In this document: in pieces, positions 27,563 to 48,347 of the stretch | Layout: the number at the start of each line of letters is the position of its first letter | Numbering within the stretch: position 1 is the first letter of the stretch | Assembly: GCF_000975035.1 (NCBI RefSeq) | Contig: NZ_BBRA01000001.1 | Span: forward strand, 186,001-250,000 | Reading direction: 5' to 3' | From: Demequina flava | GTDB lineage: Bacteria; Actinomycetota; Actinomycetes; Actinomycetales; Demequinaceae | DNA: 64,000 nucleotides | Notes under the pieces: generated by a model | What the model saw: the letters and a program-made list of their open reading frames with translations, nothing else | What the model was told of the DNA's origin: nothing | Database searches by the model: none | Translations under genes and position numbers: made by a program

Positions 27563-27637
27563 GCCACGCGACGATAGCCGCGCCACGCGCCACCTCGCGA
27601 GGGCAAAACCGCAATCTGTGGAAAACCCGCGTCGAGC

Positions 27638-30054: not shown

Positions 30055-30711
30055 ATGCCCGTCACTCACATCGACCTGTCGCAGCCCGTCGCCGACGGCA
30101 CGGTAACCACTCCCGGCCAGCCCAGCGCGCGCATCGGCTGGTGGCGCACCCATTCCGACACCGCGTCGATGTACGCCGAAGGGACGTCGTTCGCGTTCTC
30201 TCACCTGGATGTCATTGGCGGCACCGGCACGTACATGGACGCTCCCCTACACCGCTTCCCCGGCGGCGCGGACATCACCGGATACGAGTTGGACCGTCTC
30301 GTGAGTGTTCCCGGGATCGTGATCGACGTTGAGGGGTCTTTTCTTTCGGCCGATGCTGTGGCCGGCCTGGACATCGAAGGCAAAGCCGTCCTTGTGCGCA
30401 CCGGCGCGAGTGCACGGTTCAATACGGATGGCTACGTGGTCGACGCTCCGTTCATCAGCGCCGACGCCGGAGCCGCGCTTGCTGCCGCGGGGCCGGCCAT
30501 GGTGGGAATCGACGGCCCAAACGTCGACGGCACATCCACGAACGCGAGACCCGTCCACACTTCGCTGCTCGCTGCGGGCATTCCGATCATCGAGCACATG
30601 ACGAACATCGACCGGCTGCCACGCGACGGCTTCACCGTGACAGCCGTTCCGTTGAACTTCGCGGGCCTGGCGACCTCGCCCGTCCGTCCGTTCGCAACCG
30701 TTCCCGCGTAG
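30055..30711 (+). CDS. cyclase / kynurenine-formamidase-family hydrolase
   Basis: A 218-residue member of the PF04199 cyclase family, which hydrolyses formamides, isatin and related compounds with a metal site. The metal motif region reads GGTGTYMDAPLHRFPGG: the GT, D, P and last His of HxGTHxDxPxH are kept, but the first two His positions are Gly and Tyr. A GTYxDxPxHR subgroup of this family exists, so the gene is not necessarily defective, but its chemistry may differ from formamidase. The phosphotransferase gene begins 26 bp downstream and is likely co-transcribed. Confidence 0.8.
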   Translation: MPVTHIDLSQPVADGTVTTPGQPSARIGWWRTHSDTASMYAEGTSFAFSHLDVIGGTGTYMDAPLHRFPGGADITGYELDRLVSVPGIVIDVEGSFLSADAVAGLDIEGKAVLVRTGASARFNTDGYVVDAPFISADAGAALAAAGPAMVGIDGPNVDGTSTNARPVHTSLLAAGIPIIEHMTNIDRLPRDGFTVTAVPLNFAGLATSPVRPFATVPA

Positions 30712-30737
30712 CACCACCACTCGCAAGGAGTTCTCGC

Positions 30738-31484
30738 ATGACAGAAGACATCTCTGGAGGTCACGTCAACGAGGTCGAACGGATTGGCGACACCGTTCAC
30801 CGCACAGCGGGGCCATGGACGCCGACCATCCACGCATTCCTCACACACGTGCGCGACAGTGGCATGACATTCGTACCGGCGCCCCTGGGCTTCGACTCCC
30901 AAGGCCGCGAGGTACTGACGTGGATCGACGGCAACGTGGGCGGCTGGCCGGTTCCGCAGTGGGTGTGGACGGAGAAGACTCGAGTCCAGGTTGGCCAGAT
31001 GTTGCGCTTCTTGCACGACGCATCCGTGGACTTTGATCCCGATTCCCCGCACTGGCGTTCGCCCAGCCACGAGCCGCCCGAAGTCATCTGTCTCAACGAC
31101 GCCGCCCCCTACAACATGGTCCATGACGGCACTCGTGTCGTGGCGTTTATTGACGTCGATATGTCCTCGCCCGGCCCCAGAGTGTGGGATCTCGCCTACC
31201 TCGCGTATCGCCTGTGTGGCTGGTGCGAAGATATGCCCGCCCCGGCGGGTACGACTCCAGGAGATCGTCTCCACGATCTTCTCGACGCGTACGGTCGCGA
31301 TGTAGCACCCACGTCACGCGAAGTACTCGCCACCATGCACACGCGCCTCCTGGACCTCGCGGATTGGTCAGATAACCATGCGGTCGCTTCGGGCGCGTCG
31401 GAGCTCCACGCTCACGCTGAGATGTACCGCCGCGACGCGACCCGCCTGACCGGCCAGCCGGACTGCGGGCAACGGCCCTGGTGA
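30738..31484 (+). CDS. APH-family phosphotransferase
   Basis: 248 residues from ATG 30738, with AAGGAG eight bases upstream. It belongs to the aminoglycoside/choline-kinase-like fold (PF01636). The catalytic loop is read as CLNDAAPYNMV, where the usual HxD is LxD; the catalytic Asp and metal-binding Asn remain. The next metal motif is FIDVDMSSPGPRVWDLAYLA. Physiological substrates of such small actinobacterial phosphotransferases are mostly unknown, and nothing here points to antibiotic resistance specifically. Confidence 0.8.
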   Translation: MTEDISGGHVNEVERIGDTVHRTAGPWTPTIHAFLTHVRDSGMTFVPAPLGFDSQGREVLTWIDGNVGGWPVPQWVWTEKTRVQVGQMLRFLHDASVDFDPDSPHWRSPSHEPPEVICLNDAAPYNMVHDGTRVVAFIDVDMSSPGPRVWDLAYLAYRLCGWCEDMPAPAGTTPGDRLHDLLDAYGRDVAPTSREVLATMHTRLLDLADWSDNHAVASGASELHAHAEMYRRDATRLTGQPDCGQRPW

Positions 31485-31888: not shown

Positions 31889-33589
31889 GTGGACAACCAC
31901 ACGACTGCCGTCTCGCGCGCACACGCAACCCTGAAGCGCATCGACGCCGACCCCACTCGAGCGGTGTGGATTGAGCTCCGAGACGCCTCAGCCATTCTCG
32001 CCGAGGCGCAGGCTGTCGATGAGAGGGTCACAACGGGCGAACCACTCCCCCTCGCGGGGCTCACCGTCGCAGTCAAGAACAACATTGACGTGGAGGGGAT
32101 TCGCACCACTGCTGCACACCCGAACTTTGGTGCGGTTGCCAGTGCCGACTCTGCAGCTGTCGCGAGGCTTCGCGAAGCTGGCGCAATCATCATTGGGTCG
32201 ACAAACATGGACCAGTTCGCCACTGGGCTCGTCGGCACCCGTTCCCCTTTTGGAGCCCTGGAGTCCGCCACCCACTCAGGCAGGATCGCAGGAGGCTCGT
32301 CCTCAGGCTCGGCGGTGGCGACGGCCCGCAATTTAGTCGACATCGCACTCGGAACCGACACCGCCGGCAGTGGCCGTGTTCCTGCCGCCCTGAACGGCAT
32401 CGTCGGCATCAAGTGCACTCGCGGACTCATCCCTGCGTCCGGCGTCGTGCCCGCCTCTCGCACTTATGACTGTGTCACCGTGTTTGCACGGGACGTCGCC
32501 ACTGCAGCAAGGGCCGCCGCAGTCCTCATCGGCCCCAATACTGCGGACCCGCTATCTCGAACATGGTCACTAGATGCCCCGCTGGCGGCTCCCCCGACGC
32601 CTACCGTTGCAGTTCCTCGCGCCGAAGACCTCACGTCTCTCGACGCTGAACGAGTAGAGGCCTTCGAGGCGGCCGCGCGCCGCCTCGAGGCGAGCGGAGC
32701 CCGGTTGGTGACAGTGGACATCAGCGGACTGCTCGAAGCCGCGAAGCTCCTGTATGGCGGCGCCATCGCCGCAGAACGTGCCGCAGCATACGGAGAATTC
32801 CTTGCCAGCCACCCGGAAGGTGCGAACCCGATTGTCGCGAGCATCGCCGCTGGCGCAAGCCGGCACAACGCTGTCGACCTTGTGAAGGACACCGAGCGGC
32901 TTGACCAGGCGCGCGCCGAGGCAAGACGGCTCCTCAAAGAAACTCACGCACTACTCATTCCCACGGCGCCCATGCACCCCACTCTGGCCGAGGTGGAAGC
33001 GGATCCCGTCGCCACGAATACGCGCATGGGGACTTTCACAAACTTCATGAACCTTCTTGACCTGTGCGGCGTCGCAGTGCCGGCAGCAAGCACGAAAACC
33101 GGCGGCTTTGGCGTCACCGTGGTCGCGCGCGCCTTCGAGGATCAGGTTGCGCTGGACCTCGCCGCTATCTTAACCGGGGAGAGTTCGCCACCGCGGCTGG
33201 GTGGGGGCACCCCCCTAGCAGTCTTTGGCGCCCACCTCTCGGGAGAGCCGCTGAACGGTCAACTCACTGACCGAGGCGCCACTCTTGTCGGCCCAATCGC
33301 CACCACGGAGAGCTACCGCATGGTCGAGCTACCAGGAGATGTGCCGAAACCAGGAGTAGCACCAGCACCGCAGGGTGAAGGCGCACGCATCAACGGGGAA
33401 CTGTGGATGCTCCCTCCGAGCGCTTGGGGCCCGCTCCTCGCCGACGTTCGAGTACCGCTGGCACTCGGCCCGGTTGAACTCGATACCGGCGCAGTGGTCA
33501 CCGGGTTCTTGTCTACGAACATGGACGGCACGGACATCACCTCCGTTGGTGACTGGCGAGCACACAGGCGTTCCCAACGGACCGCCTGA
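31889..33589 (+). CDS. atzF: allophanate hydrolase
   Basis: 566 residues with both family parts. The amidase-signature domain (about 1-430) has the Ser-cisSer-Lys triad regions TVAVKNNIDVEGIRTTAAHP, RIAGGSSSGSAVATARN and LGTDTAGSGRVPAALNGIVG. The C-terminal domain (LAVFGAHLSGEPLNGQLTDR, TTESYRMVELPGDVPKPGV, ELDTGAVVTGFLS) is the one seen only in complete allophanate hydrolases. The enzyme converts allophanate to two ammonia and two CO2. Its partner urea carboxylase is encoded 4 kb downstream on the other strand. An operator-like site precedes the gene. Confidence 0.92.
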   Translation: MDNHTTAVSRAHATLKRIDADPTRAVWIELRDASAILAEAQAVDERVTTGEPLPLAGLTVAVKNNIDVEGIRTTAAHPNFGAVASADSAAVARLREAGAIIIGSTNMDQFATGLVGTRSPFGALESATHSGRIAGGSSSGSAVATARNLVDIALGTDTAGSGRVPAALNGIVGIKCTRGLIPASGVVPASRTYDCVTVFARDVATAARAAAVLIGPNTADPLSRTWSLDAPLAAPPTPTVAVPRAEDLTSLDAERVEAFEAAARRLEASGARLVTVDISGLLEAAKLLYGGAIAAERAAAYGEFLASHPEGANPIVASIAAGASRHNAVDLVKDTERLDQARAEARRLLKETHALLIPTAPMHPTLAEVEADPVATNTRMGTFTNFMNLLDLCGVAVPAASTKTGGFGVTVVARAFEDQVALDLAAILTGESSPPRLGGGTPLAVFGAHLSGEPLNGQLTDRGATLVGPIATTESYRMVELPGDVPKPGVAPAPQGEGARINGELWMLPPSAWGPLLADVRVPLALGPVELDTGAVVTGFLSTNMDGTDITSVGDWRAHRRSQRTA

Positions 33590-33674: not shown

Positions 33675-34382
33675 ATGACCGCCACAGACAGCGCCGCACT
33701 GGTCGACGATCTTGCCAACAAGCTTCGTGACTTGATCGTGTCGGGAGAAATCGCCGCGGGGACACCACTGCGCCAAGCGGATCTGGCCGTGCGCTTTGGC
33801 ACGAGCCGCACTCCCGTACGAGAAGCCCTCCGTCAACTTCAGGCAGGCGGGCTGATCGAAATATTCCCTCACCGCGGCGCGATCGTGCGGATTCCCACAC
33901 CCTGGGAGGTCCGCGAGTCCTACGAAGTGCGCGCAGAACTAGAGGCCCTCGCCGCACGACGCGCGGCGACGCGGCTGTCGACTCAAGCCATCGCCCAGAT
34001 GCGCGAGCACAACGACAAGCTCTTCGACCTCACCCGAGCGGCCGCCCAGGAGGGCTCCCAGGACTCCACGAGTCAGATACTGGATGCGGCGAACGAGTAC
34101 GCACTGCACCCAGCAATCCTGGCGGCCGCCGACAACGCCCGCCTCGAGTCCGTGCTCGACGGCGTTCAAGCGTCTCTTCCCAAGAATGTGCCAGGTTTGC
34201 TCCTACTCGAAAACGCAAGCCACCGCGAAGAAAACCACCGAGAACACACACGCATCATCGACGCGCTTGCCGCCCAGGACGCCAACGCGGCATCGGACCT
34301 GATGCGGGCCCACGTCCTCAGCGCGGGTGATCAGGTCGCACGCTGGTACGAACGGCGTTCGACCAAGATACTTCGCCACTAA
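33675..34382 (+). CDS. GntR-family (FCD) transcriptional regulator
   Basis: 235 residues from ATG 33675. The N-terminal winged helix (LRDLIVSGEIAAGTPLRQAD, VRFGTSRTPVREALRQLQAGG, GLIEIFPHRGAIVRIP) is typical of GntR. The all-helical C-terminal FCD domain (YEVRAELEALAARRAATRLS, EYALHPAILAAADNARLESV, EHTRIIDALAAQDANAASDL) binds a small organic acid or amide and usually a metal. Exact TTGGATCCAA sites before its own gene, the next MFS gene and the urea carboxylase gene suggest it controls the whole island. It is probably a repressor relieved by the pathway substrate. Confidence 0.9.
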   Translation: MTATDSAALVDDLANKLRDLIVSGEIAAGTPLRQADLAVRFGTSRTPVREALRQLQAGGLIEIFPHRGAIVRIPTPWEVRESYEVRAELEALAARRAATRLSTQAIAQMREHNDKLFDLTRAAAQEGSQDSTSQILDAANEYALHPAILAAADNARLESVLDGVQASLPKNVPGLLLLENASHREENHREHTRIIDALAAQDANAASDLMRAHVLSAGDQVARWYERRSTKILRH

Positions 34383-34490: not shown

Positions 34491-35675
34491 ATGCCTCTTG
34501 CCCCCGCAGGTCACCGTTCATGGGGCTTTTGGCTCGTCACTCTTGCCGCGACCGCGAACTACGCAGTTATGGCAGCCACAGCCCCGCTCCTGAATAGATC
34601 CGTCCCTGAACTTCTCGGGTACGACACGGCCATCGCGGGTAGCTTTGTTGCGATAGCGGGGTTCGCGGGAATGGCCACCATGCCCGCGCTGGGCTACTTA
34701 GCAGGACGATTCGGCCCACCGAGAGTCACAATTGTGGCAGCCGCCCTGGCCACCATCGGGATCGGGATCGCGACCATCGCGTTCGCAACTCCTGGAATCG
34801 TGGCGAGCCGGATCGTATACGGCCTCGGAAACGCTGGAATTACCGTGGCGACCACAGCGTGGGTTAGCGCCACCTCCCCTGCGGCTTCTCGCGGCCGCGC
34901 TCTCGGTTATTACGGGATGAGCGTCTGGTTGGGCTTGGCGATCGGGCCAGTGCTGGCAGAGAACGTATATGCAGCCATTGGCAACGGCCGCACCTGGGCC
35001 GTTCTGCTCGCGGTCCAGGCTCTGACCTTTATTCTCGCTGTGACGGTACGGGGCAACCCCGTGCGTGGTGAAGACTCCCGGGCGGGTCAGGCCTCCACCG
35101 TGACGACCGTGCGCCGAGCCGTCGCCGTGCCCGCCGCAGTGGCCATTGCAGCTTGGGGCGCACAGGGCGTGCTCACGGCATTCCTCGTTTCGCATCTGGA
35201 GGCACGCAGCATTCCCGCAACGGGGCTCCAGGGCGGAGCCACCATCCTGCTGGTGTTCGCGAGTTCAGTATTACTCGCCCGTATCGCGCTGGCGTCCTTC
35301 ACCGACCGCCTTGGACCCACACGCGCCACGCAAACGGCGCTCGGAGTCGTTGCACTAGGACTAGCGGGACTTGCTGTTGCCCCAGGATTCGCTACTGCAT
35401 GCGCGGCAGCAATCGCCCTTGGATTTGGCTATGCGCCGCTCTATCCCTCGCTGACCGTGCTGGCGACCCAGTCGCTCGCGGGGCCAGATAGGTCAACCGC
35501 CATTGGCTGGTTCTCCGCCGCGACGTCAGCAGGCATGGCAGTCGGGGCCGTCGCTGGAGGATCCCTGATTGTTGTCGTGGGATCGACAGCGACGATCGCG
35601 CTCTGTGCTGTGGCTCAAATCGCAGTTATCCCCCTCTTACCTCCGGCTAAAACTCGAAATGCCGCGAGGAGTTAA
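34491..35675 (+). CDS. MFS transporter of the catabolic island
   Basis: A 394-residue, 12-helix MFS protein. Helix 2-3 loop ALGYLAGRFGPPRVTIVAAA and repeated Gly-rich helices (LGYYGMSVWLGLAIGPVLA, ALGFGYAPLYPSLTVLATQS) are typical of the DHA1/YfcJ-like group. It may import the compound degraded by the island or export a product. It has its own operator and is followed by a hairpin terminator before the convergent creatininase-family gene. Confidence 0.85.
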   Translation: MPLAPAGHRSWGFWLVTLAATANYAVMAATAPLLNRSVPELLGYDTAIAGSFVAIAGFAGMATMPALGYLAGRFGPPRVTIVAAALATIGIGIATIAFATPGIVASRIVYGLGNAGITVATTAWVSATSPAASRGRALGYYGMSVWLGLAIGPVLAENVYAAIGNGRTWAVLLAVQALTFILAVTVRGNPVRGEDSRAGQASTVTTVRRAVAVPAAVAIAAWGAQGVLTAFLVSHLEARSIPATGLQGGATILLVFASSVLLARIALASFTDRLGPTRATQTALGVVALGLAGLAVAPGFATACAAAIALGFGYAPLYPSLTVLATQSLAGPDRSTAIGWFSAATSAGMAVGAVAGGSLIVVVGSTATIALCAVAQIAVIPLLPPAKTRNAARS

Positions 35676-35725: not shown

Positions 35726-35757
35726 CAGCCGGCGGCCACCACAGTGACCGCCGGCTG
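35726..35757. terminator. hairpin between convergent MFS and creatininase-family genes
   Basis: A perfect 10-bp GC-rich stem, CAGCCGGCGG / CCGCCGGCTG, with a 12-base loop and an AAAA run just before it. It lies 50 bp after the MFS stop and 15 bp from the creatininase-family stop, so it can serve both strands. Confidence 0.8.
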
Positions 35758-35771
35758 AATCGTCGAAATGC

Positions 35772-36581
35772 CTATCGCGTGCGTTGCGGCTCCTGCTCGC
35801 GAACAGCCGCTGCAAGCGCTCGCGAGGTGCGTTCGACACAACGATCAAACTCGGCTCGTCCATGCTCGGCATTTGCCGCTTCAACTTCGTTGCCCCACAC
35901 CCCCGACTCCGACACCTGATCCATTCGGTAGTCCCAGAACGAATCTACGTCGGCATGTGAGATCGCCTTGTCCATGCGCACCAGATCGGGCCGCAAGTGC
36001 AGCATTACAGAAGTTTCAAAGAAGTTGGCGTGCATCAAACCACGTCCGAATTGGACTCGCCCGTCAACCTCGGGCCCGGGATACATGGTTACGTACCCGA
36101 TCGAGCGAGCGCGCACGTCGTCGTAACGAGTACGGAGCTTTTCTATCGACACGTCGAGGGCACCGTTGTTCCAGATGTGCCCCGAAATGAAGATGAACTG
36201 GCGCACACCGGAGGCGTACAAAGAGTCGGTCAAGTCATGCATGACAGCAATGAGCGTTTCTGGGCGCAAGGTGAGCGTGCCGGGAAAGTCGCCGTGAGAC
36301 CCGGAGACCCCGATCGAGACGGGGGGTACAACTGGAATTCCAGTAATGGCGGACACGCAGTCGGTCAGTGCGGCATCGATCTCGGTGTCAACATTCATGG
36401 GCAAGTGCGGCCCATGCTGTTCGATCGCACCGATAGGAATGATGGCTGCACGGTGGTGTTCGACGGTCGAGGACACTGATAGCCAATCGAGTTCCTCCCA
36501 CCTCAACGGCGCGCCGGTTCCTCCTAGTTCTGAGGCAAGTGCGCGGATATCAAGTCCAGTGGGTGGCAATGATGGGGTCAT
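35772..36581 (-). CDS. creatininase-superfamily hydrolase with altered metal site
   Basis: 269 residues from ATG 36581, which overlaps the deaminase stop (ATGA) and follows AAGGAGGA. Family motifs: IPIGAIEQHGPHLPMNVDTE (Glu, His, Asp ligands), SHGDFPGTLTLRPETL, IFISGHIWNNGAL and LMHANFFETSVMLHLRPD. In creatininase itself the third region is GHYEN, where His and Glu bind metal; here the Glu position is Trp. Members open cyclic or linear amides (creatinine, formamidopyrimidines, a scyllo-inosose derivative). The substrate is probably an amide intermediate of the island pathway; creatinine itself is not established. Confidence 0.82.
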   Translation of the reverse strand: MTPSLPPTGLDIRALASELGGTGAPLRWEELDWLSVSSTVEHHRAAIIPIGAIEQHGPHLPMNVDTEIDAALTDCVSAITGIPVVPPVSIGVSGSHGDFPGTLTLRPETLIAVMHDLTDSLYASGVRQFIFISGHIWNNGALDVSIEKLRTRYDDVRARSIGYVTMYPGPEVDGRVQFGRGLMHANFFETSVMLHLRPDLVRMDKAISHADVDSFWDYRMDQVSESGVWGNEVEAANAEHGRAEFDRCVERTSRALAAAVREQEPQRTR

Positions 36582-37048
36582 GCGGGGTCCTCCTTGAAAG
36601 GCGTAGTTAGGCGTCCTATGCGCTGATGGCGGTAGGGCAACAGCTCTTCTGCAGTAACGGCCGCTGGATCCCCCGCCTTGCCAGCCCATACACGCGCGCT
36701 CGGCCACATCTCGGCCAGGAGCTCAGCGCACACGCCGCAAGGCTCAATGAGATGATCCGTGCCGTCTGGCCTCCTCACAACCGCCACGAGGGACACGACG
36801 CGCAGCCCGACGGCCACCGCGGCAGAGGCGACTCCCGACTCTGCGCATATTGAAGCGCGACCCTGGGAGGCTTCGACGTGAATGCCCGTCACCACTCGGC
36901 CGTCCTCTAAACGCGCAGCGGCCGCGACCTCATGTCGACGAACCTCATACCGCGCCTCAAGAAGTGCGATGGCTTCGCTCATGAGCGCAGAGTCAGCGGT
37001 TCCCATACAGGCCTGGGCCTGGATCACTGTTGGGCGTTGGGCGCTCAT
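36578..37048 (-). CDS. cytidine-deaminase-like zinc deaminase
   Basis: 156 residues from ATG 37048, coupled to the amidohydrolase-2 stop (ATGA). Zinc motifs of the cytidine deaminase fold are present: GRASICAESG (Cys-Ala-Glu, zinc ligand plus catalytic Glu) and EPCGVCAELL (Cys-x2-Cys). The rest is unlike cellular Cdd; it is nearer to the divergent blasticidin-S-deaminase-like group in layout. It probably removes an amino or imino group from a heterocycle or amidine handled by the island. A start at ATG 37069 is also possible. Confidence 0.82.
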   Translation of the reverse strand: MSAQRPTVIQAQACMGTADSALMSEAIALLEARYEVRRHEVAAAARLEDGRVVTGIHVEASQGRASICAESGVASAAVAVGLRVVSLVAVVRRPDGTDHLIEPCGVCAELLAEMWPSARVWAGKAGDPAAVTAEELLPYRHQRIGRLTTPFKEDPA

Positions 37049-37806
37049 ACCCAGCCCATGATTCGGCACATGTTCCCTCCTTCAATCAACGCACGATCAT
37101 CGGCATCCGGTACCGCCTTCGCAATCTTCATACGCTCAAGGTCGAAGTCGGAACCGGGCCACTCGGAACCCATCAGGATCTTCTCCGCCCCGACCCGAGC
37201 GTACGCTCGCTTAACGTCTGACATGAGGGTCGCCGACGTTTCTAAGTAGACGTTCTCGCGGCGCTCAGCGACGATGATCGCTTCTGGGACGTTCCACACT
37301 GCACCCATGTGAGCGATGATGGTGGGCACCGTCGGGTGGTCTTTCGCAATCTCCTCGATAGCAAACGGCGCACAAAACGCATCATCCAGCGCGTTAATAA
37401 GTACCGGGATCTTCAACTCAGCGCAAACCTCAAAAACGGGATCGAGCAGTCCGTGATCGGCAACGTGGTAGCCGTGCATACTCGGATGAAGCTTTAGTCC
37501 GACAAGACCCGCATCGACGAACGTTCGGATCTGCTCGGTGGCGTCGTCGTCTTGTGGCATGACTTGGCCAAACCCGAAGAGTCGGTCAGGGTGACGCTTG
37601 ACAAGTCCCGCGAGGAACTCATTCTCGATGCGCTGCGCTAGCGAACACACCATCGCCTTGTCCACTCCCGCCGCGTCCATCCGGTCGAGGATGCGAGAGG
37701 CATCAAACGGCACATAAGGCGGCGCCTGTTGCCCTGGACGCGCGCCGGTGAGGTAGTCACTGCGCCCACGCACATCCTGCGTTGTGTTGTAACTATCAAT
37801 AATCAT
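37045..37806 (-). CDS. amidohydrolase-2 family protein without the usual HxH motif
   Basis: A 253-residue TIM-barrel protein of PF04909. Recognisable parts are FGFGQVMPQDD, GLVGLKLHPSMHGYHVADHG, PTIIAHMGAVWNVPEAI, NVYLETSATL and the end KILMGSEWPGSDF. The N-terminal metal motif, normally DxHxH, is IIDSYNTTQD, and the late Asp of the SD/TD motif is Glu. Metal binding is therefore reduced or different; it might be a lyase, lactonase or isomerase rather than a standard hydrolase. AAGGAG precedes ATG 37806, 16 bp after the carboxylase stop. Confidence 0.8.
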   Translation of the reverse strand: MIIDSYNTTQDVRGRSDYLTGARPGQQAPPYVPFDASRILDRMDAAGVDKAMVCSLAQRIENEFLAGLVKRHPDRLFGFGQVMPQDDDATEQIRTFVDAGLVGLKLHPSMHGYHVADHGLLDPVFEVCAELKIPVLINALDDAFCAPFAIEEIAKDHPTVPTIIAHMGAVWNVPEAIIVAERRENVYLETSATLMSDVKRAYARVGAEKILMGSEWPGSDFDLERMKIAKAVPDADDRALIEGGNMCRIMGWV

Positions 37807-37822: not shown

Positions 37823-40800
37823 TCAGACGATGGGACGGACGATGGCTACCGGTTGGCCCGCGGTGACCGGTTCGCCGGGGTTGACAAGTAGTTCCAGGAC
37901 AGTGACGGCACGCTCGGGCACAACGGGAACTTCCATCTTCATGGCCTCGAGGACAACGATTGCGTCGCCCGCGCCAGCTTCCTGACCTGGTACGGCGGGT
38001 ACTTTCCAGACGACACCGGCCATGGGTGCTACGCACACGTCCGCCCCGTCGGGGACCTCAGTAGCGGGACTAGTTCCGAGGTCGGAATCGCCCAAGGGCC
38101 CGGGGTCGGCCACTTCAAATTCCCCTGAGGCCTCCCATGCGGCGCGCTCTGCTTCGAAGGCTTCGCCTTGTCGCCCGCGGAACAGCGATATTGATTCGGC
38201 TTCCCGCTCCAAGAACTCACGATGCTCCGCCAGCGAGAACTCTCCTTCAGTCACAGGGACTTCGAAGCGCCCTGCTGCGAAGGCAATCCGCTGTTCTTCA
38301 AGGGTGTCTGGATCGACCTCGACAAATTTCACGCGGTCGAAGAACCGCAGCAACCACGGTTCACCCGGGAGAAAGTTTGGGTTTGAATTACGAACTCCGC
38401 CCCAGATCGGGAGCGTTCTTCCAACAAGTTGATATCCACCGGGGCTATCCATGCCATAGATACACATGTAACTTCCACCGATGCCAACTGTTCCTTCCGC
38501 AGTCCATGTGCGTGCCGGGTTGTACTTAGTCGTGACGAGGCGGTGCCGGGGGTCGATCGGTACAGCCGCGGGCGCACCCAGGTATACGTCGCCGAGTCCG
38601 AGCACCATGTATGACGCGTCAAAGACCGTCCGCCGTACATCGTCGGCCTCTGCCAAGCCATTGATGCGGCGAATGAACTCAATATTGTCCGGGCTCCATG
38701 GTGCGTCGTCACGAACGAGATCTTCGTAGCGGCCTATCGCAGCTCTAACCACAGGGTCATCCCACGACATGGGGAGGTGCACCTCCCTACTCGGCACCAC
38801 GAGGTTGTCAGTGGCAGGCAAAGCGGATTCGAGCTCTTCCAAGAGACGATGAAGGTCCCGCACACTCATCTGGTCGGCGTCGACGTGGAGGTGCAACGAC
38901 CGGATACCGGGTGTCACATCGACGACCCCACGCGCGGAATGTTCGGTCAGCGCCTCCATCAGCGCATGGACGCGCAAGCGGAGTCCGAGGTCGAGTTCCA
39001 TGTCGCCGTACTCGACTAAGAGATTGTCGTCACCGCCACGGCGGTACACAACGGCTGGGCTGTCGGCTTCAGCCTCGCGTCGCCCAAGCACACCGTCGTC
39101 CGAGTCACTGCCGACGTGGGAAGGGTTGAAGACAGCAGCCTTTGCGCGGGCGGAACGGATATCAGACGTTATTGAGTCATCTACGGGGACGAGCGTTACC
39201 GTGTCACCAGGACGCATCTGGCCGATCTTCCATCGATCAGCCGAGACCACGGTCACCGGGCACGCGAACCCTCCCAGAGACGGGCCGTCGGGGCCGAGAA
39301 TCGAGGGAGTGTCACCAGTAAAGTTGATTGCCCCGACGGAGTAGGCATTGTCGTGGAGGTTGGATGGGTGCAGTCCAGCTTCGCCGCCATCTGGCCGTGC
39401 CCACGTAGGCTTCGGGCCGATCAGCCTCACACCGGTCCTCGCAGCGTGGACGTGAACGCGCCATTCGGCTTCATAAAGCGCGTTAATAGACTCTCGAGTG
39501 AAGTACTCCGGCGCTGGCTGCGGGCCCTCAGCAACATGCAACACCCACGCACCGGGGAACTCAGGACGGTCGAGCCCGGCACTCTTGTCAGGGGCAAGAG
39601 CGGCACCCGCCCCTGCCCGCAAGACGTCTCCGAGCCGCAATGCTCGCCCGCCGTGGCCGCCAAATCCTCCTGCGACAAAGGTCGATGCACTCCCCAGGTA
39701 CGTGGGAGCGTCGAATCCTCCAGCAACCGCGATATACGTACGCGCACCTGCCGTAGGAGTTGCGACATCGAGCACCTGCCCGGCATCGACCCGGATCAGT
39801 TCCCACTGCTCCACGTTTACGCCGTCAAGTCGGACCTGCGCTGGCGCTCCCGTGACCGCCACATAGGTGTCATAGCTGAATGAAAGGGCGGGACCCTGCA
39901 TCGTAGCTTCAAGCGCAGTTGCTCCTTCATCGTTACCCACCAACCGATTGGCGCGGCGCATCGAGACATCATCGAAGGGCCCGGACGGAGGAACTCCCAC
40001 TTGCCAGTGGCCAACACGGCCCGGCCAATCCTGCAATGTTGTCGACATACCCGGCCGTTCAACAACGATCCTGGCGTCAGTTACGTCGACGGACGCCAAG
40101 GTATTCGTCGTGGGAGTCGTATCGACCACAAGCGGATCCACGGCGAGCGCCTTCAGCAAAGGAAGGTTCGTCTCGATGCCGTCTATTCGAGTGTCAGCGA
40201 GCGCACCCGCCAAGATGGAGAAGGCTTCGGCCCGATCCTGACCAGTCGCGATGATTTTGACCAGCAAACTGTCGTAGTCAGTCGTCACGACATCACCGGT
40301 TTCGATTCCCGCTTCGACGCGGACGCCGGTGCCCTCGGGCAGTAGCACCCGGGTAACCAGTCCCGAACTTGGTCGAAAGCCTGCAGAGACGTCCTCCGCA
40401 CACACTCGAGCTTCTACGGAGTGTCCTGTCTGGACTATTTCAGGCAGAGTTTTCTCACCGCCAGCGAGCCGGAGCATCACGTCGACCAAGTCAACTCCGC
40501 TCACCTGCTCGGTCACCGGGTGTTCAACTTGGAGACGGGTATTCGCCTCTAAGAAATAGTGATCATCACCGCTCACGAGGAACTCCACAGTTCCTACGGA
40601 GCGGTAGTTCACTGCCGATGCGATACGTCGCGCATCCTCCCAAAGCTGGTCACGCAGACGGCAGTGAAGGCCAATCGCCGGAGCCTCCTCCATCACCTTC
40701 TGATGACGCCGCTGGAGACTACAATCTCGATCACCCAGCACGACAACATTCCCGCTTCCATCCCCTACGATCTGGACCTCGACGTGGCGCGGAGCGATGA

Positions 40801-41407
40801 TGGCCTTTTCAAGAAACACGCTGGAGTCACCGAACAGGCGGAATGCAAGCGAACCTAGCGCCGAGTAGGCCTCAACGAGCTCTGTCTCGTTGTCGCACCG
40901 CTGAACTCCCATCCCTCCTCCCCCAGCAACGGCCTTCAGCATGACCGGATATCCAATCAACGCTGCGGCTCGATTCGCTTCCGCCGCAGAGCCAAGAACC
41001 CCCGTGCCTGGGATGCTGCTTACGCCTGCACTGGCGGCGAGCGATCGGGCACGGGATTTGGAACCGAACAACGCGATTTGGCGGGCTGTTGGGCCGATGA
41101 ACGTGAGCCCTGCGTCATCGACAGCTTCAGCAAACGCGGCGTTCTCCGAAAGGAACCCGTACCCTGGATGAATAGCGTCAGCTCCGACACCAGTGGCAAT
41201 GTCAATAATCTCAGCGATGTCGAGATATCCGGCTCCGTCCGCAGACAATGCGACCGCCACATCCGCCTCGCGCACGTGCGCAGCAGCAGCATCGGCAGCC
41301 GTGTATACCGCGATTGCTGTCTGTCCCGCGGACTGAACGGCACGGATGATACGGCGCGCGATCTCGCCGCGATTCGCAACCAATACAGCGGTAATGGTGA
41401 GTGACAT
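37823..41407 (-). CDS. biotin-dependent urea carboxylase (or guanidine carboxylase)
   Basis: 1194 residues in the standard order. Biotin carboxylase (about 1-450): KAVAGGGGMGVQRCDN, RHVEVQIVGDGSG, FLEANTRLQVEHPVTEQ. Carboxyltransferase made of KipA- and KipI-like parts (about 455-1060): STTLQDWPGRVGHWQVGVPP, LIGPKPTWARPDGGEAGLHP, DAPWSPDNIEFIRRINGL. Biotinyl domain at the end: VVLEAMKMEVPV with the biotin Lys. The enzyme makes allophanate from urea, ATP and bicarbonate; close relatives prefer guanidine. No CgdAB/UAAP genes or urease lie in the window. It leads a four-gene operon behind a TTGGATCCAA site. Confidence 0.93.
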   Translation of the reverse strand: MSLTITAVLVANRGEIARRIIRAVQSAGQTAIAVYTAADAAAAHVREADVAVALSADGAGYLDIAEIIDIATGVGADAIHPGYGFLSENAAFAEAVDDAGLTFIGPTARQIALFGSKSRARSLAASAGVSSIPGTGVLGSAAEANRAAALIGYPVMLKAVAGGGGMGVQRCDNETELVEAYSALGSLAFRLFGDSSVFLEKAIIAPRHVEVQIVGDGSGNVVVLGDRDCSLQRRHQKVMEEAPAIGLHCRLRDQLWEDARRIASAVNYRSVGTVEFLVSGDDHYFLEANTRLQVEHPVTEQVSGVDLVDVMLRLAGGEKTLPEIVQTGHSVEARVCAEDVSAGFRPSSGLVTRVLLPEGTGVRVEAGIETGDVVTTDYDSLLVKIIATGQDRAEAFSILAGALADTRIDGIETNLPLLKALAVDPLVVDTTPTTNTLASVDVTDARIVVERPGMSTTLQDWPGRVGHWQVGVPPSGPFDDVSMRRANRLVGNDEGATALEATMQGPALSFSYDTYVAVTGAPAQVRLDGVNVEQWELIRVDAGQVLDVATPTAGARTYIAVAGGFDAPTYLGSASTFVAGGFGGHGGRALRLGDVLRAGAGAALAPDKSAGLDRPEFPGAWVLHVAEGPQPAPEYFTRESINALYEAEWRVHVHAARTGVRLIGPKPTWARPDGGEAGLHPSNLHDNAYSVGAINFTGDTPSILGPDGPSLGGFACPVTVVSADRWKIGQMRPGDTVTLVPVDDSITSDIRSARAKAAVFNPSHVGSDSDDGVLGRREAEADSPAVVYRRGGDDNLLVEYGDMELDLGLRLRVHALMEALTEHSARGVVDVTPGIRSLHLHVDADQMSVRDLHRLLEELESALPATDNLVVPSREVHLPMSWDDPVVRAAIGRYEDLVRDDAPWSPDNIEFIRRINGLAEADDVRRTVFDASYMVLGLGDVYLGAPAAVPIDPRHRLVTTKYNPARTWTAEGTVGIGGSYMCIYGMDSPGGYQLVGRTLPIWGGVRNSNPNFLPGEPWLLRFFDRVKFVEVDPDTLEEQRIAFAAGRFEVPVTEGEFSLAEHREFLEREAESISLFRGRQGEAFEAERAAWEASGEFEVADPGPLGDSDLGTSPATEVPDGADVCVAPMAGVVWKVPAVPGQEAGAGDAIVVLEAMKMEVPVVPERAVTVLELLVNPGEPVTAGQPVAIVRPIV

Positions 41408-41510: not shown

Positions 41511-41866
41511 TCTACACGCTTGAGTATCCGAACAGCGACACGAGCGTTTCCCCCATGTAAATTTTCCCGCCGATGGCGCGAACGACTCATGCCGCGGGGT
41601 GATCCTGGAATCGAGACAGGGCCTGGCCTGCAAGCATCGGCCCCGACCGCAACCCCTCGACACCCGCATCGTCGGCCTCGAATTTACAAGAACGTAACCT
41701 GGGAGTTCACGTTCGGATACACGGGAATGTAGATTGGATACACATCAGCACAAGTTGGATGCCTGACCGCTCTCCGCGACTCACCTTTGAGCTGATCCGC
41801 AGCGGCCTCGCAAACGTGAGGCGGAACCACTGCGGCTACCTCCCCCTCCGTCCACTAGGAGTAACA
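41511..41866. other. divergent promoter region between urea carboxylase and the ABC importer
   Basis: This 356-bp region has no convincing gene. It holds one copy of the dispersed 10-mer (AGCATCGGCC at 41633) and, from 41711, three GGATAC/GGAT half-sites before the importer. A short open frame continuing upstream of the importer ATG (from 41759) has no ribosome site. Confidence 0.5.
41734..41763. promoter_or_regulatory. degenerate GntR operator pair before the ABC importer
   Basis: TTGGATAC (41734-41741) and TTGGATGC (41755-41762) lie 21 bp apart start to start, about two helical turns, and share the GGATAC/GGATGC combination seen before the allophanate hydrolase gene. A further CGGATAC lies at 41714. 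The match to the palindrome is partial. Confidence 0.5.
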
Positions 41867-43450
41867 ATGGCTAGGAAAACCGTCGCCTTCGCGACTTACG
41901 CACTTACCGCGACACTTACGCTCGCGGCATGCTCAGCCGCCACGGAAGAACCAGGAACCGCTACCTCGGCTGGCGAGTCTTCGGCACCGACCGCATCGAC
42001 CGACACCATCAATACAGAGCTCTTTTCCGCTCCGACTCAGTTTGATCCCGCAATCGCATCCGGCTCGGCAAGCGTCTCGGCCGCCCGCCTTGGGTTCGAC
42101 ACCCTGCTCAGGGCTAGCGACGAAGGATATGTTGGCGGATTGGCATCGGACTGGGAAGCCCAGTCCGCGTCGGACTACACTCTCACCATTCGCAGCGACG
42201 CCACGTGTTCCGATGGCACAAGCATCGATGCGCAGGTTGTCGCGGACTCGCTGACGTACCTCACAACCGTCGACGATGCCGCCGCACAAGCCGCCACGGC
42301 ACAGGCATTCGGAGCGGGCAGCGCGACGTTCACCGCGAGCGACGATGTCCTCACCATCAGTTTGAGCGAACCGTATTCAGCAGTGTTGGCGGGCCTTGCG
42401 CTCGAGAACACCGGCGTGATCTGCCCTGCCGGTCTCGAAGACCTCGAGGGCCTCGCAGCGGGGACAGTTGAGGGTGCCTGGTCGGGCCCTTACACCCTGA
42501 GCGACAGCAACCCAGGCGTGAGCGCTTCCTACGCCTTGCGTGACGACTACACAGTCTGGCCCTACGAGCTCGACGGTGTGCCGGCGGAAACGATCAACAT
42601 CACCGTTGCCGCAGATTCGACTACCTCCGCCAATCTCCTGCAGTCAGGAGGAGTGGACGTTACTCGTTTCTACGATTCCAACGCGCTTCAGTTCACCGAA
42701 AGCGATGACTACTCATATGAGACAACCAACGCCTCAGCTTACTCTCTCGTCTTTAACCAAACGGAGGGTTCTGGATCCATCTTCATCGATGCTCCGGAAC
42801 TCCGTGCCGCTGCTGCCAGCGCAGTATCGCGCGAAAGGTTCAACGAGGCCGCACTCGATGGTCTCGGCACTCCGCTGACCTCCATCACGTACACGCAGTC
42901 CCCGTGTGTAGCTGATGACGAGTCACTACTTCAGCCGTACGACACGGCGGCCGCCACGAGCGAGCTCGAAGGCGTGACGATCCGTCTGCTCACGATGTCG
43001 AACTGGGACGCCGCGACTGACTACATGTCAGAGTCTCTGCGGGCCGCAGGCGCAACCGTCGAAGTTACCGAACTTGACCCCGCCGACTGGAGAGCAGCTC
43101 AGCGGGCCGAGAAGGGCATCTGGGATGTCACTCTCGTCGCCGATGGCAACACCACCGGAATTGTCAGCCTTTCTCTCGAACGTGTAATGGGGCCGCTGAC
43201 TGAAGACGGCGGTTCCAACATCACAGGCAAGGTCAACGACGTTGCAGACTCTGCACTCGCCGTCTCGATGTCGACCGACGATGAGGATGCCGCGTGCGCT
43301 TCCTTGCTCGAAGCTCAAGAGTCGGTACTTGCCGACGTCGCCTTTGCCCCCCTGATCTCCGACACGCACTTCATCGTGTCGCGCGCAGGTTTCTCGTCGC
43401 CGATCATCGCCGGCAACTGGGACCTCACCGCCATGCGTGTGACGGCGTAG
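41867..43450 (+). CDS. peptide/amide ABC importer, substrate-binding lipoprotein
   Basis: 527 residues from ATG 41867 (AGGAG six bases upstream). The lipoprotein signal ends LTLAAC, then an acidic linker and a family-5 (DppA/OppA) binding domain: DTINTELFSAPTQFDPAIAS, LASDWEAQSASDYTLTIRSD, YSAVLAGLALENTGVICPA, ELRAAAASAVSRERFNEAAL. Family-5 proteins bind peptides, nickel, opines, ureido compounds and others. It leads a five-gene plus-strand operon ending in an amidohydrolase, so the ligand is probably the island substrate. Confidence 0.88.
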   Translation: MARKTVAFATYALTATLTLAACSAATEEPGTATSAGESSAPTASTDTINTELFSAPTQFDPAIASGSASVSAARLGFDTLLRASDEGYVGGLASDWEAQSASDYTLTIRSDATCSDGTSIDAQVVADSLTYLTTVDDAAAQAATAQAFGAGSATFTASDDVLTISLSEPYSAVLAGLALENTGVICPAGLEDLEGLAAGTVEGAWSGPYTLSDSNPGVSASYALRDDYTVWPYELDGVPAETINITVAADSTTSANLLQSGGVDVTRFYDSNALQFTESDDYSYETTNASAYSLVFNQTEGSGSIFIDAPELRAAAASAVSRERFNEAALDGLGTPLTSITYTQSPCVADDESLLQPYDTAAATSELEGVTIRLLTMSNWDAATDYMSESLRAAGATVEVTELDPADWRAAQRAEKGIWDVTLVADGNTTGIVSLSLERVMGPLTEDGGSNITGKVNDVADSALAVSMSTDDEDAACASLLEAQESVLADVAFAPLISDTHFIVSRAGFSSPIIAGNWDLTAMRVTA

Positions 43451-43454: not shown

Positions 43455-44546
43455 ATGAATAGCGCCGCTCGCGCCGGAGACCAAGGAAGGAACGACACCA
43501 CAGTGCCCGAATCGCTGTCGAACGACTCCGAGGCCCCCGGCACGGGCGGCGCTCCCGCCGTCAGCCCGCATGGAGCAGGAAGTCGGGCTCAGACGTGGAA
43601 ACGGTTCCTCATTCGCAGGTTCAAGAGCCTCGCAATCAGCCTCGTCATGCTCGTCCTCATGACGTTTTTCATCGTTCAACTTATTCCTGGGGACCCAGCT
43701 GAGGCTATCGCCGGCCCCGACGCCTCGCCGGCCACCGTCGATGCTGTGCGCTCAGAGCTTGGCCTTGATGACCCCACCCTTGCCCAACTGTGGGACTACC
43801 TCGTAGGGGTGGCGACCGGCAATTTTGGCGAATCATTTCGCTACGGCGTTCCGGCCCTCGACATCGTCATGGCTGCTGCGCCGTACACAATCACAATCGC
43901 GTTCGCGTCCGTTCTGATCGTGCTGGTGGGCGGTGTGGCGTTGGGGATCTCGGTCGCAATCGCAACGCGTGGCGACCGCCGCCGCTGGCTCGGCACAAGT
44001 TTCACCACGATTACAAGTGTTCTCACATCGATTCCCCCGTACATCCTCGCAACATTTCTCGTCGTGATTTTCGCTCTGTGGCTGTCGTGGTTTCCGCCGG
44101 CGTACACCCTTGCCTATGGGTTTTGGCAATCTGCCGTGCTGCCTATCGCAGCACTGTCCATTGGCAGCATCGGAGGCATGGCCCGCATCGTGCGGCGTGA
44201 AGCCGCGGTGATCGAAGAAATGGACTACATGCGTAGCGCGCGCGGATGGCGACTTCCGGCCATCGTGCGATATGGGAAGCACTTGCTCCCAAACGTGCTC
44301 ACCACCGCGCTCACGCTGTCAGGGATCATCCTCACCGCGTTGCTCGGTTCCGCTCTTATCGTGGAGACGGTGTTCGGCTGGCCGGGAATTGGCAGTGCAG
44401 TGATCCGCGCTATCGCTGAAGACAAGGACTATCCCGTCATCCGCGCCGCGGTGTTCGTCATCGGCGCGATCTCGCTGATCACTACCCTCGTCATCGACAT
44501 CGTCCTTGGCGCTATCGACCCTCGGACCCTCGGAGAAGAACGTTGA
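43455..44546 (+). CDS. ABC importer permease, DppB-like
   Basis: Up to 363 residues from ATG 43455; GTG 43503, which has AAGGAAGG upstream, is an alternative and better matches family length. The membrane domain has the DppB order: LISLVM-type first helix with FIVQLIPGDPAEAIAG, the periplasmic LGLDDPTLAQLWDYLVG, GNFGESFRYG, and the ATPase-coupling EAA loop MDYMRSARGWRLPAIVRYGK, then ALLGSALIVETVFGWPGIG. It overlaps the next gene by 4 bp (TTGA). Confidence 0.9.
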   Translation: MNSAARAGDQGRNDTTVPESLSNDSEAPGTGGAPAVSPHGAGSRAQTWKRFLIRRFKSLAISLVMLVLMTFFIVQLIPGDPAEAIAGPDASPATVDAVRSELGLDDPTLAQLWDYLVGVATGNFGESFRYGVPALDIVMAAAPYTITIAFASVLIVLVGGVALGISVAIATRGDRRRWLGTSFTTITSVLTSIPPYILATFLVVIFALWLSWFPPAYTLAYGFWQSAVLPIAALSIGSIGGMARIVRREAAVIEEMDYMRSARGWRLPAIVRYGKHLLPNVLTTALTLSGIILTALLGSALIVETVFGWPGIGSAVIRAIAEDKDYPVIRAAVFVIGAISLITTLVIDIVLGAIDPRTLGEER

Positions 44547-46237
44547 ACGCCACCGTAGCGCGCCCGCAGACGCGCCGTGTCCGTTGGAACGGCACACTGA
44601 TCGCGGGCATCGTCATGTTCGCGATCGTGGCGCTCGTCGCCATCTTTGCGCCGTTTTTCTACACCGACCAGGCGGCCGAGTTAACGGGAAACTCAAACCT
44701 TGGCACCGTTGCCGGTCACCCACTCGGGACGGATGCCCTTGGACGAGACATGCTCGCCAGGACCCTCGTCGCCACACGGACGACAGTATTGATGGCTCTC
44801 GCGGCGACCTCGCTGGCGGCAGTCGTGGGAATCGGCTTCGGGATCGGCGTCTGGCTGGCTCCTCGACGTATCCGCAACCTTGGACTACGGCTAATCGAGT
44901 TCTTCATTTCCTACCCGGGACTCCTGCTGGCGATCATCGTGGCCGCTATCTTGGGACAGGGTGCGGTCACTGCAGTGATCGCGGTCGCCATCGCCAGTAT
45001 CGCGGGATTTGCGCGCCTCACTGCCAACCTCGCGTCAGGCATTGCGGCCCGCCAGTACGTGACGACAGCCCGTCTCTTGGGCGTTCCAGGCCCCCGCATC
45101 GCAATTCGGCACGTGCTCCCTAATATGGCTGAGCCGATGCTAATCATTACCGCTCAGGCATTCGCCGGAGCCTTAGTCGAGATATCCGGGCTATCGTTCG
45201 TCGGCCTAGGCACACAAGCTCCGTACTACGACTACGGGACCCTACTTTCCGACAGCCTGTCAAAGATCATGACGAACCCGATTTTGCTCGTTGGTCCTGC
45301 GGTGGCCATCATCTTTGTCTCAATGGCCGCCCTCTTCGTTGGAGACGGGCTAGCCGCCGCAGCAAACCCCCGGTCCAACGCAAAGCAAGCGCGCGTCTCC
45401 GCGCGATCTGACAAGTCCACTTCACTCGAGGTGCCGCAAGACGCACTCCTTGTCGCCGATGGTATCCACGTGAGCCACATTGAGTCTGGACGGGAGATTG
45501 TCTCCGACGTCTCGTTCACGATTCGCCGCGGGGAGATCGTGGGAATTGTGGGAGAGTCCGGCTCGGGAAAGTCTCTGACCGCTTCTGTCGCATCTTGTCT
45601 TTTGCAGGATGGATTGCACGCTTCCGCACGCCGCCTGACCCTAGGTGAAACCGACCTCCTTGGGCGAGTTCCACAACCTGAACTCGCTTCACGCATCGGC
45701 CTTGTGTACCAAGACCCAGGAACAGCGCTCAATCCCGCCCTTACTCTCGGTTCGCAACTCACAGACGTGTTGCGCACCAGGATGGGGATGCGACGGCGTG
45801 AAGCTCGCAATGCCCTAGTCGCGGCATTCAAAGATGTTCTCATGCCAGACCCAGAGGGCCGCCTGCGCCAGAATCCTCATGAGCTCTCTGGAGGCATGAA
45901 CCAAAGGGCGATGATTGCATCCGCGATGAGTGTTGAGCCCGAGTTGCTGATTGCAGATGAGCCAACCACCGCACTTGACGTCACTGTGCAGCGTGAGGTC
46001 CTGGCGCTCATCCATCGCCTTAACTCAGAACGAGGCACCGCCGTGCTCTTCATCTCACATGACCTCGGAGTGGTTCGTCGCCTATGCGACCGAGTTCTGG
46101 TCATGCAGCGGGGTCAGATTGTTGAGGAAATCTCTTCGATGGAGAATCTCACTGTTGAGGGGGCTCAACACCCGTACACCAGGCAACTCCTTGCGGCCAC
46201 TCCCGTCGTGAGCGTGGCAAACGAGGAGCAGCAATGA
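44543..46237 (+). CDS. ABC importer permease-ATPase fusion (DppC-DppD type)
   Basis: 564 residues from TTG 44543, overlapping the DppB stop. Residues about 1-280 are a DppC-like permease (GHPLGTDALGRDMLARTLVA, EAA-loop region ARLLGVPGPRIAIRHVLPNM). Residues about 300-564 are a DppD-like ATPase: IVGESGSGKSLTAS, LSGGMNQRAMIASAMS, LLIADEPTTALDVT, SHDLGVVRR, and the C-terminal HPYTRQLLAATP oligopeptide-type tail. Such fusions occur in actinobacterial peptide importers, so this is probably natural and not an error. It overlaps the next gene by ATGA. Confidence 0.9.
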   Translation: MNATVARPQTRRVRWNGTLIAGIVMFAIVALVAIFAPFFYTDQAAELTGNSNLGTVAGHPLGTDALGRDMLARTLVATRTTVLMALAATSLAAVVGIGFGIGVWLAPRRIRNLGLRLIEFFISYPGLLLAIIVAAILGQGAVTAVIAVAIASIAGFARLTANLASGIAARQYVTTARLLGVPGPRIAIRHVLPNMAEPMLIITAQAFAGALVEISGLSFVGLGTQAPYYDYGTLLSDSLSKIMTNPILLVGPAVAIIFVSMAALFVGDGLAAAANPRSNAKQARVSARSDKSTSLEVPQDALLVADGIHVSHIESGREIVSDVSFTIRRGEIVGIVGESGSGKSLTASVASCLLQDGLHASARRLTLGETDLLGRVPQPELASRIGLVYQDPGTALNPALTLGSQLTDVLRTRMGMRRREARNALVAAFKDVLMPDPEGRLRQNPHELSGGMNQRAMIASAMSVEPELLIADEPTTALDVTVQREVLALIHRLNSERGTAVLFISHDLGVVRRLCDRVLVMQRGQIVEEISSMENLTVEGAQHPYTRQLLAATPVVSVANEEQQ

Positions 46238-47067
46238 ACGAGACCATCGTCAACGTCGCCAATCTCAACGTCCACTTTGGCTCGGCCCACGTCCTGCGCG
46301 ATGTGTCGTTCGCCCTCGCTACCGGCACGACCATCGGGGTCGTTGGCGAGTCAGGATCGGGAAAGTCCACGCTCGCGAAGACGCTCGTAGGAACTGTGCC
46401 TGCATCCGACGGTGAGGTGTGGGTGGACGGCCTGGATGTGCGTCACGCCACCCGCCGGCAACTTGCAGACTACCGACGACGAACCCAGATGATCCCGCAA
46501 GACCCTTTCTCCTCGCTATCACCCAGGAGGACCATTGGCCAAACGTTGGCGGAAGCGATCGAGCCCGGCCGAGGCCGTGTGCGGCCGCACCGCGAACGGA
46601 TCGTCGACTGGCTCGAGAGAGTGGGCCTCGCAGGGTCGATGATGGATCGCTATCCCCACGAGTTCTCCGGCGGCCAACGCCAACGAATTGCAATCGCGCG
46701 TGGGCTGATTGTGGACCCGACCCTGGTCATCGCAGATGAGATTACGTCGGCGCTCGATGTGTCTGTACAGTCGCAAATCCTGGAACTTCTGGCCGAGATC
46801 AGGGACACCCTCGGCCTCACCATGATGTTCATCTCGCACAACCTTGCCGTCGTCCAGCGTGTGAGCGATGAGGTGCTGGTTCTGTACAGGGGCGTCGTGG
46901 TCGAACGCGGGCCTGTGGCACAGATTTTCAACGATCCAAAGCACTGGTACACGCGCTCGCTCCTGGAAGCTGACCCGGGATCGCCAGGCTTCACCCTCGA
47001 TGCCACAGCACTGGACGCCGAGCGGTCAATGGCTTCCACTCCGCGGGGAAAGGCATCTCACCAATGA
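46234..47067 (+). CDS. ABC importer ATPase, DppF-like
   Basis: 277 residues. Walker A GESGSGKSTLAKTLVG, Q-loop MIPQDPFSSLSPRRT, signature FSGGQRQRIAIARGLIV and Walker B VIADEITSALDVSVQ are intact. It pairs with the ATPase half of the upstream fusion to form the two-site motor. Overlaps its neighbours by ATGA at both ends, so the importer and the amidohydrolase are made together. Confidence 0.92.
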   Translation: MNETIVNVANLNVHFGSAHVLRDVSFALATGTTIGVVGESGSGKSTLAKTLVGTVPASDGEVWVDGLDVRHATRRQLADYRRRTQMIPQDPFSSLSPRRTIGQTLAEAIEPGRGRVRPHRERIVDWLERVGLAGSMMDRYPHEFSGGQRQRIAIARGLIVDPTLVIADEITSALDVSVQSQILELLAEIRDTLGLTMMFISHNLAVVQRVSDEVLVLYRGVVVERGPVAQIFNDPKHWYTRSLLEADPGSPGFTLDATALDAERSMASTPRGKASHQ

Positions 47068-48347
47068 CGGTCGCTCGACTCCCACACGTGCCCGCTTCTC
47101 CCGGCATCACTCGCATCGTGGGCGCCACCGTGCTCGATGGGACGCTCCGGGATCCTCTATTCGATGCTGAGGTGGAGTTTGTCGACGGCGTAGTGTCCTA
47201 CGTCGGCCCTCGCCGCCCGTCACGCGGCCACGCTATGACCGTGGTCGATGCTCGGGGCGGGTTTGTCATGCCCGGCTTTGTCGACCTCCATGTGCACCTT
47301 GCGATGTCCCATGAAGCGGATCAGGAGGAACAACGGCGATGGTTCCCTGAAGAGGAAGCCTTTGCCACCGCGTCGACCATGCGATCGACGCTGAACGCTG
47401 GCGTCACCACGGCTCGTGACCTCTCGGGACTGACCCCGGGATATCGCAAGGCCATCGCGCAGGGCAGAGTCTCTGGCCCCCGTCTACACCTGGCTATCGC
47501 ACTGCTCTCCCCCACCGGTGGGCACGGAGATCCAGTCCACCCGAATGGCTCCGTCCCTCTCTACGCCGAGCGCGCCACCACGCCGGGGTGGGAGGTTGTT
47601 GACACTGACGACGAAGTGATCCGCGCCGTTCGCAGACTCGCCCGGACTGGGGCGGATGTCATCAAAGTTTGCACCACTGGGGGCATGTCGTCACCGAGTT
47701 ACGGTCCCGACCACCCCGGCGTACCCACGTCCCAAGTCTCGCTCATTGTTGAAGAAATGGCGAAGCTTCAAGGCCAGCCCGTCACTGCCCACGCACAAGG
47801 TGCGGACGGCGTGACGGCTGCGGTAGTTGGTGGTGCATCCAGCGTCGAGCACGGGTACGACGTTACAGACGAGACCTTGTCGCTGATGGCCGAACGCGGG
47901 ACTGCATTGATTCCCACGCTTGCCACTCTCCTCAAGCCAGCGGACCCCACAGTGGTCGGACCAGAGAGGGCAGCACTCAAGCGAGGTTGGCAGGAGCGCG
48001 GTCGTGATTCGACGCGACGCGCCATCGACGCCGGCGTCACCCTTGGGATGGGTACTGACGCGGGGATCCATACACAAGGACGCAACCTAGCGGAACTCGG
48101 CCACCTGGTCGATGCTGGGTTGACCCCTTTCGAGGCTATTCACGCAGGGACTGCGGTAGGTGCACGCATTCTTCGTCTCGGCGACAGCCTAGGGACTCTG
48201 GGACCGGGGATGATGGCGGACCTCGTCGTTACTGAAATCGACCCGCTCAAGAGCATTCACGCCCTCGAGGATCCAGACACGATCCGCGCGGTTGTCCAAG
48301 CGGGCACGGTAGTCAAGGACCTCGACTCGATGACAAGCCGAGTGTGA
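47064..48347 (+). CDS. amidohydrolase (imidazolonepropionase / prolidase-like) of the island
   Basis: 427 residues. Metal ligands are visible: VDLHVHLAM (HxH), the carboxylated Lys in VIKVCTTGGMSSPS, TAHAQGADGVTAAV and SVEHGYDVTDE histidines, and MGTDAGIHTQGRN (Asp). A C-terminal beta part ends LVVTEIDPLKSIHALEDPDT. Related enzymes cleave Xaa-Pro or N-acyl/N-carbamoyl amides and imidazolones. Its ATG overlaps the importer ATPase stop, so it most likely performs the first cytoplasmic hydrolysis of the imported compound. Its stop codon lies inside a long hairpin. Confidence 0.88.
   Translation: MTVARLPHVPASPGITRIVGATVLDGTLRDPLFDAEVEFVDGVVSYVGPRRPSRGHAMTVVDARGGFVMPGFVDLHVHLAMSHEADQEEQRRWFPEEEAFATASTMRSTLNAGVTTARDLSGLTPGYRKAIAQGRVSGPRLHLAIALLSPTGGHGDPVHPNGSVPLYAERATTPGWEVVDTDDEVIRAVRRLARTGADVIKVCTTGGMSSPSYGPDHPGVPTSQVSLIVEEMAKLQGQPVTAHAQGADGVTAAVVGGASSVEHGYDVTDETLSLMAERGTALIPTLATLLKPADPTVVGPERAALKRGWQERGRDSTRRAIDAGVTLGMGTDAGIHTQGRNLAELGHLVDAGLTPFEAIHAGTAVGARILRLGDSLGTLGPGMMADLVVTEIDPLKSIHALEDPDTIRAVVQAGTVVKDLDSMTSRV

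Follow-up and report, generated by a model that had tools for sequence, protein, structure and literature searches.

The closest described systems are the atzDGEHF operon of Pseudomonas sp. ADP, a compact ring-opening and amide-hydrolysing operon with the allophanate hydrolase as its last gene (PMC6219798), the urea amidolyase pathway of urea carboxylase and allophanate hydrolase, and the guanidine carboxylase pathway, in which a carboxylase of the same family also acts with allophanate hydrolase (PMC12186494, PMC11410670). In the window, that is, the whole 64,000-nt stretch of Demequina flava DNA analysed here, genes for an amidohydrolase-2 family protein (AH2), a zinc deaminase and a creatininase-family hydrolase form a trio in an island that also encodes both urea amidolyase enzymes. 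In its logic the trio resembles operons already described, atzDGEHF among them, but its enzymes come from other families: no AtzD, AtzE/G or AtzH type gene was recognised among the scanned cluster genes, and cyanuric acid hydrolase is absent from the island, every annotated gene of which falls in another Pfam family. Unlike in the plain urea amidolyase pathway, the two enzymes are joined here to an upstream hydrolase trio, which elsewhere occurs without them. The earlier note had found no named pathway to match this arrangement, and none was found in the open-access literature either, the subscription literature lying outside the scope, so that a prior description is possible.

The operon is encoded on the minus strand and runs from urea carboxylase (37823..41407) through AH2 (37045..37806) and a cytidine-deaminase-fold zinc deaminase (36578..37048) to the creatininase-like protein (35772..36581), ending at a strong hairpin. 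The four genes were assigned to one operon on the basis of the 16-nt gap between the carboxylase and AH2, the common strand, and a 14-bp hairpin with a T-rich tail, the probable terminator, just past the last stop codon (35726..35757, minus strand); a scan for sigma-70 promoters returned no match. As the earlier note had described, the trio lies downstream of urea carboxylase and both of its junctions are ATGA overlaps, the plus strand reading 'tcat' at 37045-37048 and 36578-36581, with 4 nt shared between the AH2 stop and the deaminase start and between the deaminase stop and the creatininase start. All three reading frames are open and intact, and their Pfam scores exceed the cut-offs (Amidohydro_2 110 bits, dCMP_cyt_deam_1 32.8 bits, Creatininase 203.6 bits). 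The ORF listings also contain GTG starts further upstream for the deaminase (37069) and the creatininase-family gene (36707); the overlapping ATGs were favoured because, among 16 close-subfamily AH2 loci, the AH2-deaminase junction is an A/GTGA overlap in 13 and TGATG in one, the remaining two being one junction with no overlap and that of G1198, whose deaminase is encoded on the opposite strand.

The operon is flanked on both sides by plus-strand genes. On one side lie an AtzF-type allophanate hydrolase (31889..33589), a GntR/FCD regulator (33675..34382; kept in the Demequina loci, L045 and L073) and an MFS transporter (34491..35675; kept in the Demequina loci, L045, L046 and L048), both of the latter assigned by Pfam. 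On the other side lie the genes of a dipeptide/oligopeptide-type ABC importer, comprising a solute-binding protein (41759..43450, SBP_bac_5), a permease (43455..44546), a permease fused to an ATPase (44543..46237) and an ATPase (46234..47067), and then a prolidase-like Amidohydro_1 protein (47064..48347), whose top NCBIfam match, NF051886, scored 226 bits against a cut-off of 500. Folylpolyglutamate synthase and isoleucyl-type tRNA synthetase genes border the island, which has a GC content of 61.6% compared with 65% on both flanks. Cyclase-family and aminoglycoside-phosphotransferase-family genes at 30055-31484, between folylpolyglutamate synthase and allophanate hydrolase, had no counterparts in the other Demequina islands by tblastn. 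Elsewhere in the window, two overlapping minus-strand ORFs at 25890-27586 had no Pfam match. At the island edge of another genome, Demequina G025 (L026:15764-18676), two adjoining folylpolyglutamate synthase-like genes are 49% and 82% identical to that of the window.

The urea carboxylase and allophanate hydrolase of the window scored above their curated cut-offs (TIGR02712, 1533.7 vs 1303.85 bits; TIGR02713, 573 vs 511.05 bits). In Kluyveromyces lactis numbering, the urea type of the carboxylase has been defined by Asn1330 together with Asp1584, and the guanidine type by Asp1330 (PMC11410670, PMC12186494). Asn695 of the window carboxylase aligns with Asn1330, an Asn also found at this position in three Demequina relatives, and the Asp1584 equivalent is kept; by this residue rule the window protein is classed as a urea carboxylase, in contrast to the guanidine enzymes. 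Urease was found in none of the 33 Demequina genomes tested, and each of the islands in the four trio-bearing Demequina genomes encodes both urea carboxylase and allophanate hydrolase. Among the loci seen, urea carboxylase belongs to the trio cluster in Demequina only, while urease is present in trio genomes without a cluster carboxylase, namely G125, five g42 genomes, G514, G1159 and G1198; G585 lacks both urease and any urea carboxylase scoring above the cut-off. In G237 and G339, an allophanate hydrolase gene follows that of a guanidine-type (Asp) carboxylase (L077:6282-11527 and L078:5901-11125), the two lying about 11 kb from the AH2-deaminase pair, and an upstream ORF is a candidate carboxyguanidine deiminase subunit. 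The absence of urease and the island urea enzymes in Demequina, together with the urease of several carboxylase-less trio genomes, fit urea as a product of the trio, but G585, G237 and G339 do not, and urea is regarded as a likely product in Demequina only. A second urea-carboxylase-like gene is present in Demequina G002, the L024 genome (contig C6:2078309-2081815).

The distribution of the trio is patchy. The island was found in 4 of the 44 Demequina genomes searched, the window's own included, and close AH2 orthologues in 12 of 396 genomes of the order; close creatininase orthologues occurred in 10 of these 396, all of them inside the AH2-bearing set. Because genomes within one genus are not independent, the genus-level figure is the fairer one: all three creatininase-bearing genera fall within the four AH2-bearing genera among 109, with a probability of about 2e-5. 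In a larger survey, the close AH2 subfamily was found in 16 genomes of seven genera and six families, with the deaminase adjoining AH2 in every one and a creatininase homologue kept in 12. The AH2 orthologues outside Demequina, in five further families, are 73-82% identical and likewise stand beside the deaminase, and the 4-nt overlap persists although deaminase identity drops to 36%. The linkage of the trio is not due to chance, and the homologues do not usually occur singly, the situation that the earlier note had named as contrary to its reading, since the deaminase stands beside AH2 in all 16 genomes and the creatininase-family gene is nested in the AH2 set. In the g30 and g145 genomes, AH2-deaminase has no creatininase-family gene nearby and no close copy of it elsewhere in the genome. 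Of the three proteins, AH2 shows the highest conservation (mean identity 83%, against 51% and 71% for the others), and distances within the three protein trees correlate at 0.82-0.95, as expected for genes that travel together, although shared host ancestry would also give this. The nearest relatives with names are Demequina, and a contig search with the deaminase, which is the most variable of the trio, returned Demequina only; plasmid-borne homologues of the trio proteins are distant, with identities of at most about 35-40%. ABC importer genes adjoin the trio, or lie within a few kb of it, in every subfamily-A lineage, but the importer class varies among lineages, so that the imported compound may differ.

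The earlier note had called the active sites of the three enzymes unusual, which held for AH2, where metal ligands are lost, and partly for the creatininase-like protein, where one ligand is replaced, but not for the deaminase, whose zinc site is canonical. AH2 belongs to PF04909 (110 bits vs a cut-off of 26.4), and its predicted model is an amidohydrolase-2 TIM barrel (pLDDT 91) with 3cjp as the nearest solved fold (Z 28.6); its fold is like those of 3cjp and 3irs, both uncharacterised, of decarboxylases and of 2-pyrone-dicarboxylate hydrolase-like proteins (Z 22-29). In contrast to that family, the strand-1 HxH and the strand-5 His are replaced in all 22 orthologues, by Tyr and Thr or Asn, and by Asn, within the motifs D-A/S-Y-N-T/N and NALDD, whereas relatives at 32-35% identity retain both. 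Judged by its sequence and the alignment, 3irs lacks HxH as well. In the orthologues the His of strand 6 is retained, and the Asp position of strand 8 carries Asp or Glu. These replacements indicate that AH2 probably binds no metal. In the deaminase, the zinc motif CAE...PCxxC (CAE and PCGVC) is complete in 16 of 16 sequences. The nucleoside motif of cytidine deaminases binds ribose; it is NVEN in those compared, and in all 16 deaminases this NxEN-type motif is replaced by an HVEA/HVEG-type segment (H-V/L-E/D-A/G) followed by an invariant Arg. The invariant Arg and His in this part of the pocket point to an acidic substrate other than a nucleoside. The predicted model of the creatininase-like protein matches the creatininase fold (Z 19); as the model is moderately confident (pLDDT 72.5, with several loops under 50), we draw no geometric conclusions from it. 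The protein shares with the Pseudomonas putida creatininase (1j2t/3a6h) the equivalents of Glu34, His36, Asp45 and His120, but Glu122 is replaced by Trp137, a Trp invariant in 13 of 13 sequences; these five residues are the metal ligands of creatininase. The family names mislead, as the deaminase scored below the cytidine deaminase equivalog cut-off (top NCBIfam score 78.6 vs 131) and the creatininase-like protein below that of TIGR04448 (122.2 vs 235 bits).

AH2 relatives at 56-60% identity form a second subfamily in other gene settings. In G800, the AH2 cluster comprises an importer of the NMT1/SsuA type, a creatininase homologue at 57% identity and an 8-oxoguanine-deaminase/TRZ-ATZ-like amidohydrolase, but no cytidine-deaminase-like gene; that another deaminase family stands in its place favours deamination as one of the pathway steps. 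ATGA overlaps between AH2 and an allophanate hydrolase gene occur in two further genomes, and GGT-like and other genes lie near other AH2 genes of this subfamily.

The multi-step conversion that the earlier note had proposed as an alternative to a complex is supported by the conserved linkage and overlaps, the co-inheritance, and the transporter and urea context. Our main reading, to which we give a probability of about 55%, is that the trio forms the centre of a catabolic module of patchy distribution that dismantles a small, probably acidic, cyclic nitrogen compound and in Demequina yields urea. The compound would be brought in by the ABC and MFS carriers, the zinc deaminase would replace an exocyclic amino or imino group by oxygen and free ammonia, and the creatininase-family enzyme would then hydrolyse the ring amide. 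AH2, lacking the usual metal site, would cleave the ureido- or amide-type compound left by ring opening, and would probably do so by acid-base chemistry with the retained His of strand 6 and Asp/Glu of strand 8. In Demequina, the urea released would be converted to ammonia and CO2 by the two urea amidolyase enzymes of the island, which would handle it because the genus has no urease. Against this reading count the absence of the creatininase-family gene from the g30 and g145 genomes, the lack of both urease and an above-cut-off urea carboxylase in G585, the guanidine-type carboxylase of G237 and G339, and the varying importer class. Whether the module amounts to an undescribed Actinomycetota pathway with a urea/allophanate outlet, its successive enzymes being a deaminase, a creatininase-family lactam hydrolase of divergent type and a metal-less amidohydrolase, we consider evenly balanced.

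AH2 might instead be a non-enzymatic scaffold or regulatory subunit holding the deaminase and the creatininase-like protein, in favour of which are the loss of HxH and the strand-5 His in every orthologue and the highest conservation of the trio, the latter being expected of a protein with several partners. We regard this as unlikely, since the Lys of strand 4, the His of strand 6 and the Asp/Glu of strand 8 are either retained or exchanged conservatively, many other residues are invariant, and members of the second subfamily are found where the deaminase is missing. Equally doubtful is a more specific version of the main reading, with an oxidised purine or pyrimidine (amino-imidazolone, oxalurate or barbiturate-like) as the compound degraded. 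It agrees with the urea and allophanate enzymes and with the 8-oxoguanine/guanine-deaminase-like enzyme, the PucR-like regulator and the GGT-like amidase beside some loci, the last related to the oxamate amidohydrolase 5hft; but these neighbours vary, the GGT relation is at the family level only, and the scanned genes included no recognisable barbiturase, hydantoinase, allantoinase or xanthine-type oxidase.

Ordinary creatinine or guanidine utilisation, which the creatininase fold and the presence of carboxylase and allophanate hydrolase would suggest, is very improbable given the Asn-type carboxylase, the creatininase score below the equivalog cut-off and the lack of a recognised creatinase among the scanned cluster genes. 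As pathways of the window, guanidine degradation was rejected on account of Asn695 and the lack of any Rfam match, and hence of a guanidine riboswitch, and creatinine degradation on account of that score and the lack of a recognised creatinase. Least probable is an accident of neighbourhood, in which unrelated nitrogen-scavenging hydrolases were collected in one island; the varied neighbours and the lower GC of the island genes would fit it, but the creatininase-family gene is nested within the AH2 genomes and the overlap is conserved over distant taxa.

If the main reading is correct, it adds an organic-nitrogen route to actinobacterial lineages and reveals a clade of amidohydrolase-2 proteins in which the metal ligands were given up as the sequence became highly conserved, and the tight linkage with adjacent transporter genes would make the substrate findable by ligand screening. 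A cyclase-family gene with the motif HPxMLHWGRxP also recurs near the module in three lineages (L050:7568-8206, L074:15691-16335 and L078:1132-1908), in one of them beside a GGT-like gene.
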